From a virus, in the IMG/VR virus record IMGVR_UViG_3300032322_002980, positions 1 through 36,794 of that record: a stretch of DNA of 36,794 nucleotides; one strand, given 5' to 3'. Of this stretch, positions 30,163 through 36,216 are shown in pieces. The position numbers and the translations under genes were made by a program. The notes under the pieces are model-generated. The model searched no databases and had not been told where the DNA came from. It worked only from the letters and a program-made list of their open reading frames with translations. Numbering within the stretch: position 1 is the first letter of the stretch; every line of letters begins with the position of its first letter.

Positions 30163-30723
30163 TCAGCCGAGGTCCACCCTCGGCGGCTTGCCGGCGCCAG
30201 CCTGCGCGGGCCCGGGCTTGTCCCAGTCCGCCGGGTAGCCCCCAGCGCCAGCCTTCGGCTTCTCCTGCGAAGCGATCTGGTTCAGCCGCGCGAAGAAGCC
30301 GCGCTTCTGGCCGTCGTCCATCGGCTTCTGGAACGAGAAGCGGCCTCCACCGGTGAGGATCTCGAACTTCATCGAGCGCTTCGCGACGCCCTGCTGGTCG
30401 GTGTAGTGGTCCCACTTCGCGCGGACGGGCACCTTGTTCGCCGTGATGCCCGCCATCGTGTCGCCGCCCTTCCAGCCGAGGGCGCGGAGACGCTCCAGCG
30501 AGAACGGCGCGGCCGCGTCGGAGAAGCTCAGGATCACCATCACGGTGCGGTTCAGGTCGAGGAGCTTCATCTCGATCGCGACCTGGTCGTTGTCGTTCTT
30601 CGACTGACCGTACGCGACGTGCGGCTCGTCCTCGCCGACCGCCTGGGCGTCGTAGATACCCTCAGCGATGTCGTCGGCGGTCTCGGTGTGCGGCTGCTGC
30701 GTCTGGTCGCTCATCGTCATCAT
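30163..30723 (-). CDS. Probable ssDNA-binding recombination partner
   Basis: The 186-residue protein follows the Sak4-like gene with an ATGA overlap; a second start at 30714 (MSDQTQ...) with GGAAGG nine bases upstream is equally good. The N-terminal 40 residues are acidic; the core (45-150) is strand-rich ('VAIEMKLLDLNRTVMVILSFSD', 'RSMKFEILTGGGRFSFQKPM'), resembling OB-like or DUF669-type proteins that accompany phage recombinases; the C-terminus is Gly/Pro-rich. I infer single-strand binding from the neighbourhood; no signature proves it. Confidence 0.5.
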   Translation of the reverse strand: MMTMSDQTQQPHTETADDIAEGIYDAQAVGEDEPHVAYGQSKNDNDQVAIEMKLLDLNRTVMVILSFSDAAAPFSLERLRALGWKGGDTMAGITANKVPVRAKWDHYTDQQGVAKRSMKFEILTGGGRFSFQKPMDDGQKRGFFARLNQIASQEKPKAGAGGYPADWDKPGPAQAGAGKPPRVDLG

Positions 30724-31697
30724 CCTTCCCTGCTGGCTTGCGCCGGCTGCTCTTCTTCACGCTTCTTCTGCACCTTGGCGGCGACCGCGTTCGCGATCTC
30801 CGCGACGTCGACGCGCGGGTCCTCGAGGTAGCCGCGCACCTTCTTCTCGACCTCGGCGTCGCCGAGCTCGGCGAGGCCGGCGTCGATCTGCCCGAGGAAC
30901 TCCGCCTTGCGCTTCGGCGCCTCGTGCGCCGCCGCGAAGAACTCCTGCCACGACAGCGGTATCTGCTTCGGCATCCACCCGCGCGTCTTCGCGTCGTAGG
31001 CGGCGTTCCACTGCGTGTGGATGAACCGCGCGCCCGTCGAGCGCCCCTTGATGCGCTTCTCGTCGTCCACCTTGCCGAACGCCTCCTCTTTCGCGAAGAG
31101 CACGTAGTCGACCCACTGCTTGATGACGCCCGCCGCCTTCGCGTTCATCGCGATCTCGTACCGGTCGTAGTTCGGCCCCATCGGGTCGTTGAACGACTTC
31201 GTTTGCGCGTGGGCGAGCAGCACGATGTGCATGCGCCGCTCCGTCCAGAGCCGCTCGAGGTGAGCGATGAGGATGCGCCAGTGATCGAGCGCGGCGTTGT
31301 AGCCCTTGCCGAAGCCCTTGAGGTGCTCCTCGATCGAGTACTTGCCGCCGGTGACCTTCGCCCAGCACAGCGGCTCGAGCCAGTTCACCGTGTCGACGAC
31401 GAGCGTCTTGTAGTCGTGCTTCTCGACGGCGAGGAGCGTGAGACCCTCGAGGGCCTCATCCCAGGATCGCGGCTCCGGGAGACGCGCGATGTCGAGCTTC
31501 GTGGTGCCGCTCTCGAGGCCGAGCGTGATGGGGCTCGGCGCCGATGCGGCGAAGGTCGACTTGCCGACGCCCTCGATGCCGTACAGCGCCAGGCGCACGG
31601 GCATCTCGATGGGTCCCGTCTTCACGTTCGCGAGCGACATGCGCTTCGCGACCGCGGGAGGGGGAGCTTGCTGCGGTTTCAGGTTCGAGACGTTCAT
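30720..31697 (-). CDS. Sak4-like RecA-fold ATPase (AAA_24 family)
   Basis: The 325 residues have a Walker A GIEGVGKST (40-48) and a Walker B-type strand 'YKTLVVDTVNW' (96-106, Asp102), plus 'HIVLLAHAQTKSF' as sensor region, the profile of the phage Sak4/AAA_24 single-strand annealing ATPases. It would load or exchange ssDNA during phage recombination. AAGGAAGG precedes ATG 31697. Its neighbours are a nuclease upstream and a probable ssDNA-binding protein downstream, a known recombination module. The C-terminal 90 residues are helical and charged. Confidence 0.78.
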   Translation of the reverse strand: MNVSNLKPQQAPPPAVAKRMSLANVKTGPIEMPVRLALYGIEGVGKSTFAASAPSPITLGLESGTTKLDIARLPEPRSWDEALEGLTLLAVEKHDYKTLVVDTVNWLEPLCWAKVTGGKYSIEEHLKGFGKGYNAALDHWRILIAHLERLWTERRMHIVLLAHAQTKSFNDPMGPNYDRYEIAMNAKAAGVIKQWVDYVLFAKEEAFGKVDDEKRIKGRSTGARFIHTQWNAAYDAKTRGWMPKQIPLSWQEFFAAAHEAPKRKAEFLGQIDAGLAELGDAEVEKKVRGYLEDPRVDVAEIANAVAAKVQKKREEEQPAQASREG

Positions 31698-31721: not shown

Positions 31722-32891
31722 TCAGGCCGCGGCCTCGGCGGTGGCCGCGCCGACGCGCACGAGGGCGTCGATCTTCCCGCCGCGCTGCCAGGTCTGACTC
31801 TCGCGGCCGCTCTCCGGATTCACGAGCGGCGAGACGAACTCCTGCTCGACGGCGAGGACCTCGATCGGCTCGTTGAGCCAGCGCACGTGGTAGCCGCGCA
31901 TGAGCTCCTCGGCCTTCACGCGCTCGAACGGGTCCGCCTCGCCAGCCATCGCCGCGAGCGCCTCGTCGAGCGACACGGTCTTCCACCACGCCTCGAGTCC
32001 CTTGTGCATCAGGGTGCCGAAGCGCAGAGCGTCGCTCTCGACGATCGAGCGCCGGCGGCGCTCGTACGAGTAGAAGTACTTCCGCGGGCATGAGCGGAAC
32101 GCCTTCATCGACGAGGCGCTCAGGAGCGGCAGCCGCCGCTTCGACTCGGCGAGCGCCGCGGAGAGCTCCTCGTGCGGCTGCTCGGCGTCGCGGTAGCGCG
32201 TCGGGTCCTCGATGTCGGCCTCGCCCGAGCAGACGGGGAAGTACTGGCAGAAGCTGCCGTACGAGTCGCACGCGTCGGGGTTGCGTGGCCAGGCGCGCTC
32301 GGTGGGGCGAGCCGCCTTCACGTACTCCGCCTGCCGAAGCTGTAGCTGACGGATCGCGTTCGCGGTGAGCCACGTATCGACGGCGGCGTCACGACGCTCC
32401 TCGTCGAAGCGGACAACGACGCCACGCTGGAAGTACTTGTCAGGCTCCTCGCCGATGTCGGCGCGGATTCGGAGCGCGAACTCCTCGGGCGTCTCGTCCG
32501 CCTCGCGCTGGCCCTTGTAGAGGCGGCCGCCAGGATCGGTCACGATGCGACCGTCTTCGCACGCGATATCTCGCGCCTCCTCACCCTCGCCCACGGTCTC
32601 GAGGTGCGGCCCTGGCGACGGATTCTTCTTCTTGCACTCCTTGCAGGCGCGACTCGACGGCTGCGTGTACTTCCGCTCCTCAGTCGGCGTCGCCTTCAGC
32701 GGCCGCAGTTGCGGCTTGTGGATGACGTCGTAGAGGATGCCCCTCGGCTCGTGACCGAGGGACCTCGCGCCGTCGTCGTACTGGTCGATCTGCGCGTCGA
32801 TCGCGAGCCGCATCCAGTACGTAGCACCGGGCTTGATCTCGAAGCCGGTCGTCTTGTGCTCCACGACGTACACCCCGGGAGTAATGCTCAT
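31722..32891 (-). CDS. Circularly permuted PD-(D/E)XK nuclease (Cas4/RecB-like motifs)
   Basis: The 389 residues contain every Cas4/RecB-type landmark, but in rotated order. First come ExK (E11-H12-K13 in 'VVEHKTT'), QxxxY (Q34...Y38) and C-terminal-type Fe-S cysteines C208, C215, C221. Then follow what is normally the N-terminal half: 'SASSMKAFRSC' (Cys268), 'FGTLMHKGLE' (His296) and 'GGKIDALV' (Asp375), and the stop. In standard family members the order is Cys, His, Asp, ExK, QxxxY, Cys cluster. GGAGGAG stands before ATG 32891, which overlaps its neighbour as ATGA, and the stop is in frame, so this is one intact gene and not two. The reaction would be exonucleolytic end resection for the Sak4 partner. 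Confidence 0.8.
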   Translation of the reverse strand: MSITPGVYVVEHKTTGFEIKPGATYWMRLAIDAQIDQYDDGARSLGHEPRGILYDVIHKPQLRPLKATPTEERKYTQPSSRACKECKKKNPSPGPHLETVGEGEEARDIACEDGRIVTDPGGRLYKGQREADETPEEFALRIRADIGEEPDKYFQRGVVVRFDEERRDAAVDTWLTANAIRQLQLRQAEYVKAARPTERAWPRNPDACDSYGSFCQYFPVCSGEADIEDPTRYRDAEQPHEELSAALAESKRRLPLLSASSMKAFRSCPRKYFYSYERRRRSIVESDALRFGTLMHKGLEAWWKTVSLDEALAAMAGEADPFERVKAEELMRGYHVRWLNEPIEVLAVEQEFVSPLVNPESGRESQTWQRGGKIDALVRVGAATAEAAA

Positions 32892-33103
32892 CGTCCACTC
32901 CTCCGCTGCATGCGCGCGCGCTGCCGCGCACGACCTTCGTGCGCGGCGGTGCAGATGCGAACCACCTGCGCGATCGGCAACGCCGCGAGCGACGCCGCGA
33001 CGCGCCTGGCAACGTCCGGCGACACGCCAGCCTCGGCGGCGACGTCGACCAGCGCGGCCGAATCGGCCAGCGCCTCCATCATCGAGCGGACCTCGGCGCT
33101 CAT
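32888..33103 (-). CDS. Small helical protein, 71 aa
   Basis: ATG 33103 overlaps its upstream neighbour (ATGA). It is nearly all helix ('AEVRSMMEALADSAALVDVAAEAGVSPDVARRVAASLAALPIAQVVRICTAAHEGRARQRAR') with an HTH-like 'VAAEAGVSPDVARRV'. It precedes the permuted nuclease with a four-base overlap, so may be co-regulated. Function unknown. Confidence 0.5.
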   Translation of the reverse strand: MSAEVRSMMEALADSAALVDVAAEAGVSPDVARRVAASLAALPIAQVVRICTAAHEGRARQRARMQRRSGR

Positions 33104-33309
33104 CGCGGCTCCGTCCCGAGCTCGAGCTCGAGGACACGGCGCGAGGGAACCCGCGCCAGGATCCGCCCGTCGACGCACTCGACGATCCGATCGGCCACCG
33201 CGCGGGCGTGCGCCGGATCAAGGACGATCGAGAGCAAGCGGCCGTCGTCGAGCTCGAGCTCGAGCACCGGACGACCGTCGAGGCGCTCGGGGCCCACACG
33301 GAGGAACAT
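33100..33309 (-). CDS. Small beta protein, 69 aa
   Basis: ATG 33309 overlaps the upstream stop as TGATG. The protein has repeated strands ('MFLRVGPERLDGRPVLELELDDGRLLSIVLDPAHARAVADRIVECVDGRILARV') and looks like a small beta-rich, perhaps dimeric, protein. No known motif; early-operon member. Confidence 0.45.
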   Translation of the reverse strand: MFLRVGPERLDGRPVLELELDDGRLLSIVLDPAHARAVADRIVECVDGRILARVPSRRVLELELGTEPR

Positions 33310-34240: not shown

Positions 34241-34275
34241 GTTACGACCGTAACCCCGGCTACGGCCGTAGTCAA
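34241..34275 (-). promoter_or_regulatory. Early promoter PL with two operators
   Basis: On the minus strand TTGACT (34275-34270), a 17-bp spacer and TACGGT (34252-34247) form a -35/-10 pair directing the leftward operon. Two dyads overlap it: GTTACGACCGTAAC (34241-34254) and CTACGGCCGTAG (34260-34271), centres 18 bp apart. The identical arrangement stands at 36182-36216. The dyads are presumably bound by the XRE repressor, closing the promoter. Confidence 0.75.
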
Positions 34276-34322
34276 GTGGTTCGTGCAAGGAAGAATGCAT
34301 CGCGGCTTTTCGCCGTCCTACG

Positions 34323-34949
34323 ATGAGTCAGATGAAGCTCGTCGCCGCCCTCGCCGCTGCCGTGGCGCTCGCCGCGTGCTCTTCCACCAACGCCTTCACC
34401 ACCGAGGACGGCGGTGCGCTAGGGACGCCGGCGCCTGACGGAGGCGCCGACAGCGGCGCTAGCGAAGACGGCGCCGCCGATGCTGCCGCTGATGTTGCGG
34501 TCGATGTTGTCGATGCCGGTAGCGATGGTGCTGCGACGTCAGTCTTCGCCGGTGCGGGCCCCTACGTCGCGGGCTCGCCTGGGCCCGGAGGACCGGCGAA
34601 CACGGCGAACGCAGCGCACGGAGGCACCGTCGTCGGCAAGAACTGCATGGTCGGCGGCTGCCACCTCGGCGGCTTCGGCTTCGGCGGTACGGTGTTCGGT
34701 CCGGGCGCGAGCACCACCGGCGTACCCGGCGTCGAGATCCGCATCGTGCACGGCGACGGCACGACCGTCGTGACGTACACCGACATCGACGGGAACTTCT
34801 GGTCTCCGGCGACTGCACCGGTCGTCAGCGGCGCGCGCCTGGGCATCCGCAACGCGACGAGTTCGAAGGAGCGGCTGTCACCGGTGCCGAACGGCGCGTG
34901 CGCCGCTGCCGGATGTCACGACGGCACGATGCGCATCCGGCTGCCGTAG
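34323..34949 (+). CDS. Lipoprotein moron with two CX4CH motifs
   Basis: The 208 residues start with a signal peptide and lipobox LAAC (Cys19); ATG 34332 is an alternative start. A Gly/Asp/Ala-rich linker (25-75) follows. The mature part contains two CX4CH sets (C108/C113/H114 and C193/C198/H199). CX4CH binds haem in some c-type cytochromes such as tetrahaem cytochrome c3, but metal or disulfide use is equally possible. A beta domain near 137-175 resembles a carboxypeptidase regulatory fold. It lies alone on the plus strand inside the immunity region, next to the operators, so it may be expressed in lysogens. Function unknown. Confidence 0.6.
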   Translation: MSQMKLVAALAAAVALAACSSTNAFTTEDGGALGTPAPDGGADSGASEDGAADAAADVAVDVVDAGSDGAATSVFAGAGPYVAGSPGPGGPANTANAAHGGTVVGKNCMVGGCHLGGFGFGGTVFGPGASTTGVPGVEIRIVHGDGTTVVTYTDIDGNFWSPATAPVVSGARLGIRNATSSKERLSPVPNGACAAAGCHDGTMRIRLP

Positions 34950-36165: not shown

Positions 36166-36181
36166 GTCGCCTACGTCTCGC

Positions 36182-36216
36182 TTGACTACGGCCGTAACTT
36201 AGGTTACGGCTGTAAT
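36182..36216 (+). promoter_or_regulatory. Promoter PR with two operators, leaderless start
   Basis: TTGACT (36182-36187), 17-bp spacer, TACGGC (36205-36210). Two dyads with cores TACGGCCGTA (36187-36196) and TACGGCTGTA (36205-36214) have centres 18 bp apart, the same module as at PL. The expected transcript start is near the ATG at 36219, and no ribosome site is present, so the message is probably leaderless. Confidence 0.75.

Follow-up and report, generated by a model that had tools for sequence, protein, structure and literature searches.

The window, that is, the whole stretch of DNA analysed here, is 36,794 nt long and corresponds to positions 1 to 36,794 of the IMG/VR virus record IMGVR_UViG_3300032322_002980. 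Inspection of its minus strand showed a single ORF coding for a 389-residue nuclease-like protein, followed by genes for a Sak4-like ATPase and for a putative SSB-like protein (Table 1). The motifs along the ORF appeared in the order E11-H-K13, Q34xxxY38, C208/C215/C221, C268, G292xxxH296 and G372xxD375, as claimed by an earlier interpretation of the letters (hereafter the sequence-only reading); the GGAGGAG box, the ATGA overlap and the in-frame stop codon that it had listed were all found in the sequence, on a strand that it had not specified. The GC distribution over codon positions was gene-like along residues 1–389, linker included (GC3 0.82–0.98, GC2 0.40–0.57), and this pattern ended upstream of the ATG. 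An in-frame extension of the ORF upstream to position 33299 was rejected, since the pattern does not continue beyond the ATG. At residues ∼80–120 (window 32530–32660), the protein carries an insert rich in cysteines (CKECKKK...C), possibly a small metal-binding ribbon. A tblastn search of the window found no second nuclease copy, nor any other strong match to normal-order relatives of the protein.

Table 1. Features of the nuclease locus and of its downstream neighbours in the window
Feature	Position	Strand	Evidence
Circularly permuted RecB/Cas4-like PD-(D/E)XK nuclease gene (389 aa), very probable	31722..32891	-	Motifs, profiles and homologues
Normally C-terminal half, residues 1–243 (E11/K13, Q34xxxY38, C208/C215/C221)	32163..32891	-	tblastn and alignment
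Linker, residues 244–256, old C-terminus to old N-terminus	32124..32162	-	Alignments and GC3 continuity
Normally N-terminal half, residues 257–389 (C268, G292xxxH296, G372xxD375), plus short tail	31725..32123	-	N-terminal parts of PF12705 and phrog_1218; alignment
Ribosome-binding site GGAGGAG, 6 nt 5′ of the ATG (32891)	32898..32904	-	Sequence
ATGA shared by the nuclease start codon and the stop codon of ORF 32888–33178 upstream	32888..32891	-	Sequence
Sak4-like single-strand annealing ATPase, next gene downstream	30720..31697	-	PF13479 (E = 4.5e-44), phrog_124 (E = 3e-41)
Putative SSB-like protein, overlapping the end of the Sak4 gene	30163..30723	-	Position and similarity to post-Sak4 genes in permuted loci

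The nearest known grouping is the PHROG 1218/PF12705 (PDDEXK_1) family, whose normal members (L019, L007 and L017 among them) have the same motifs, the same four cysteines and the same slot upstream of Sak4, with 37–53% identity to the window protein in each half. They differ in that their chain runs Cys/GxxxH - Asp - ExK - QxxxY - three Cys, an order that the rotated window chain does not follow. When five normal-order relatives were compared with the window by tblastn, one part of each matched residues ∼7–243 (E = 6e-57 to 9e-40) and another matched residues ∼254–382 (E = 4e-34 to 2e-30), the two halves lying in swapped order. These matches are far beyond chance; halves in swapped order were seen with normal-order relatives in IMG/VR and with one in a bacterial MAG. 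The family profiles told the same story: PF12705 was detected with E = 1e-10 (42.4 bits against a cut-off of 22) over only 72 residues, and phrog_1218 with E = 3e-19 in two stretches, while the N-terminal parts of PF12705 and of PHROGs 1218 and 69 fell on residues 245–379, in the C-terminal half of the window protein. The normal relative L019 was matched end to end by the same two profiles (PF12705, 9–301 on 3–246; phrog_1218, 4–326 on 6–355), where the window protein gave half matches. In the rotated alignments H296, D375, E11/K13, Q34/Y38 and all four cysteines were invariant. The window protein is a homologous, permuted variant of the PF12705/PHROG 1218 family, and an atypical member of it. 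The break had been placed in the hairpin between the Asp and ExK strands, and indeed the protein begins at the ExK strand and ends after the Asp strand; the old termini, said to be joined in frame, are connected by a linker of ∼13 residues, with no interruption of reading frame or GC3. Order-dependent annotation covers such proteins only partly, so more of them may be overlooked.

Structure prediction agreed with the alignments. The AF2 model of the window protein, built from eight same-order sequences, had a pLDDT of 80.4 and a pTM of 0.75; that of L019, built from 55 sequences, reached 95.4 and 0.89. In the L019 model, helices 10–18, 20–28, 39–59, 63–70 and 77–94 are followed by strands 99–113, 120–136 and 142–150, then by helices 159–164 and 168–179, strand 184–193 and further elements. 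The window model starts with the ExK strand (6–15), helices 24–30 and 34–44 and strand 49–58, and ends with helices 259–267, 269–277, 287–305, 308–314 and 321–338 and strands 343–357 and 364–380. As modelled, the two proteins have the same list of secondary-structure elements, rotated, apart from an insert. A sequential aligner gave the L019 model Z scores of 15.7 to AdnA, 15.1 to ACE1, 13.7 to AddB and RecE, and 10.9 to Cas4. For the window model it gave at most Z 4.6 to AdnA/ACE1/AddB-type chains, mainly over the second half, as expected for a permuted chain, and most of its matches in a viral structure library likewise covered about half. Foldseek found no significant match to the window model in the PDB. 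Cytochromes P450, which appeared at Z ∼3, were taken as noise. The predicted fold itself appears ordinary. Homologues, profiles, predicted model and synteny (see below) thus all bore out the circular permutation.

The search for the same permuted order that the sequence-only reading had proposed turned up 20 more distinct ORFs on contigs of IMG/VR. The order of parts in every fetched locus was read with four segment profiles: s1 (Cys/GxxxH), s2 (Asp), s3 (ExK/QxxxY) and s4 (three Cys). Besides partial ORFs, and leaving out two loci with segments spread over two ORFs (L076 and L215), this gave 92 distinct ORFs in normal order, 21 in the order s3-s4-s1-s2 (the window's kind) and 16 in the order s2-s3-s4-s1 (the second kind). 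At <85% identity, 15 ORFs of the window's kind and 12 of the second kind remained. In the second kind (Asp - ExK - QxxxY - three Cys - Cys - GxxxH), the cut falls after the GxxxH helix and before the Asp hairpin, at two slightly different sites. Next after the GxxxH helix comes a short helix: the Tunturi-like ORFs start before it, and L109 and L120 end after it. This kind includes gp59 of Tunturi_1 (PP887698.1) and gp56 of Tunturi_2 (PP885685.1), both from isolated, complete phages. All permuted forms join the same old ends, that of the three-cysteine cluster and that of the first cysteine. Several permuted ORFs have a stop codon 0–5 codons ahead of their start, which rules out that the missing half stands in frame before them. 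The ratio dN/dS among permuted relatives was 0.11–0.25 overall and 0.10–0.21 over the junction, which shows the same-order relatives to be under purifying selection. The permutation of the window is not a singleton; permutation has happened again in the PHROG 1218 family with the chain cut elsewhere, and isolated phages deposited in GenBank are among the cases.

Several further observations concern these loci. The shortest permuted member seen (L146:4998-5867; 289 aa) has the window's order, with its start codon right after a stop codon. The two loci with segments over two ORFs, L076:3248-4561 (s1, then s2-s3-s4) and L215:3310-4330 (s2-s3, then s4-s1), may represent split genes or frameshifts. 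No fused tandem intermediate, with segments repeated within one ORF, was seen among the loci whose order was typed, and no match to the nuclease was found in the plasmid collection. Bacterial genome contigs yielded a single relative, in normal order, in a Hydrogenedentota MAG. A scan with a single Tunturi protein as query confirmed nothing; profile scans found the relatives.

The window belongs to a metagenome-derived virus record, and a misjoined contig, in which assembly had scrambled a gene of normal order or wrongly fused two adjacent nuclease genes, could in principle mimic a permutation. The 20 other distinct ORFs show the same order in many independent samples, however, and the nearest of them is only 58–59% identical to the window ORF; this ORF has its own ribosome-binding site and ATGA overlap and a continuous GC3, and complete phages from isolates have their own permuted version. 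Misassembly of the two halves, which the sequence-only reading had named as grounds for dropping its proposal, is excluded by the independent contigs with the same order, and an artefact of any such sort is extremely improbable. The gene might instead be a decayed, rearranged pseudogene, or have some non-nuclease role, since the nuclease activity of permuted members is a prediction; yet all catalytic residues are kept in divergent permuted members, the low dN/dS holds among them, and the gene retains the nuclease slot beside Sak4, so that an inactive remnant is very unlikely. We consider it highly probable that the product of the window gene is a RecB/Cas4-like PD-(D/E)XK exonuclease with a complete set of catalytic residues, its chain having undergone circular permutation in the course of evolution.

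How many times the permutation arose was examined by phylogeny. Normal order was taken as ancestral, since AdnA, AddB and Cas4 have it. The trees contained some long branches and their support was modest, and the p values of the AU tests are uncorrected for multiple testing. The window's kind formed one clade (97/95) in a tree of 62 rows. In an 87-row tree it split, with the window and L020 inside a normal-order clade (99/96*, asterisks marking well-supported branches) and a separate clade of 12; a 104-row quick tree agreed (95* for the window pair within the normal-order clade). In this last tree the permuted forms were scattered among normal ones, requiring six changes, at least four of them forced by starred branches. 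A single ancient permutation behind all permuted forms, followed by reversions or re-cutting, would fit the one clade of the 62-row tree, a single origin of the window's kind was not rejected (AU, p = 0.26), and neither was the placement of both kinds in a single clade on the 62-row tree (p = 0.099). Against it, a single origin of the second kind was rejected (p = 0.011), the grouping of L109 with L120 was weakly rejected (p = 0.033), the larger trees placed the window pair among normal-order sequences, the starred branches forced their changes, and the cut points differ. Moreover, the window's Cys-rich insert was otherwise present only in normal-order relatives (L007, L017, L022 and L085 among them), which argues for a separate origin of the window's permutation, although its nearest relative, L020, lacks the insert. 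A single ancient event is improbable. That permutation happened at least twice is well supported, four to six events are likely, and the permutations used three different cut points.

A model can be proposed for how permutation came about. In AddB and Cas4, the first Cys and the three-cysteine cluster coordinate one 4Fe-4S cluster. The window protein has four Fe-S-type cysteines in the expected places, C268 and C208/C215/C221, all invariant, and may therefore bind such a cluster too; its spacing is C-x6-C-x5-C, and that of AddB is C-x2-C-x5-C, so this binding is not certain. The cluster would hold the old termini side by side, which could explain why they were joinable and why permutation recurred. 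The old C-terminus, just past the three-cysteine cluster, is fused through the linker to the old N-terminus, just ahead of the first Cys, and the new ends lie in the hairpin between the Asp and ExK strands. The simplest, and likely, route would be a tandem duplication, an in-frame fusion in place and the later loss of the outer parts. On balance, the evidence leans towards at least four independent events of circular permutation, with three cut points in all, perhaps favoured by an Fe-S clasp of the old termini. The family would then be a natural record of the ways, places and frequency in which a fold tolerates permutation.

The neighbourhood of the gene points to its function. The Sak4-like ATPase announced by the sequence-only reading was confirmed by its phrog_124 and PF13479 matches. 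The probable ssDNA-binding neighbour was supported by position and synteny, but its assignment is weak: the ORF had no Pfam or PHROG match and matched the annotated SSB of the Tunturi phages weakly, through relatives. In all permuted loci that could be placed, the nuclease was followed by a Sak4 homologue, either directly or at up to ∼2.8 kb, and an SSB-like gene followed Sak4 in 32 of the 35 permuted-locus records, some of which come from the same contig. Relatives in normal order are found at the position that permuted forms take upstream of Sak4, which upholds the proposal that the gene fills the nuclease slot of a single-strand annealing module. Annealing of ssDNA by the Sak4 of HK620 is enhanced by the cognate SSB, and the genes for the two are usually neighbours (PMC5928155). 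The third partner to be expected beside Sak4 and SSB would be a nuclease able to generate ssDNA, and in the window Sak4 does lie beside the nuclease gene and the SSB-like ORF, weakly assigned as it is, beside Sak4. Judging by synteny and family, the window nuclease most likely resects phage DNA ends, which the neighbouring Sak4 and SSB would then anneal and recombine.

In the two Tunturiibacter phages, the gene annotated ‘exonuclease’ (Tunturi_2, L005:5749-6786; Tunturi_1, L006:5752-6786) is permuted with the same join of old termini and is followed by Sak4 and SSB, differing from the window gene in its cut; the paper describing these phages makes no mention of a permuted exonuclease (PMC11924767). 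Among Fe-S RecB-type nucleases, profile matches to AdnA (3e-6) and SSO0001/Cas4 (3e-4) were obtained. AdnA, AddB, Dna2, Cas4 and ACE1 showed no permuted order in the matches seen, and mostly occur as helicase fusions or with CRISPR or Argonaute partners. Rotated motif orders with a kept fold have been described for cpRAS GTPases, NlpC/P60 papain-like enzymes and phage permuted DNA methyltransferases (PMC2430557, PMC3142127, PMC7824862), which have other folds and are not PD-(D/E)XK nucleases. The literature searched, a partial coverage of a field in which superfamily surveys may mention permutations elsewhere, contained no permuted PD-(D/E)XK, RecB or Cas4-type nuclease, and the topology appears to be undescribed there. 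The statement that no permuted member had been described therefore stands for that literature, but permuted Tunturi genes were already in GenBank, their order unremarked. The occurrence of both normal and permuted forms in one genomic slot among closely related members, with several cut points, makes natural permutation testable as to its frequency, its intermediates and the value of a metal-cluster clasp at the termini as a predictor.

Two other features of the window deserve mention. Operator-like TTACGGCCGTAA motifs are contained in an inverted repeat of 35 nt (83% complementary) at 34242–34276 and 36181–36215, whose copies precede the putative regulator genes located at either end of that stretch. 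A plus-strand ORF at 34323–34949, with a lipoprotein-like signal (LAACSS) at its start, lies among phage genes of the opposite strand and has the look of a gene that is expressed in lysogeny or came from the host.
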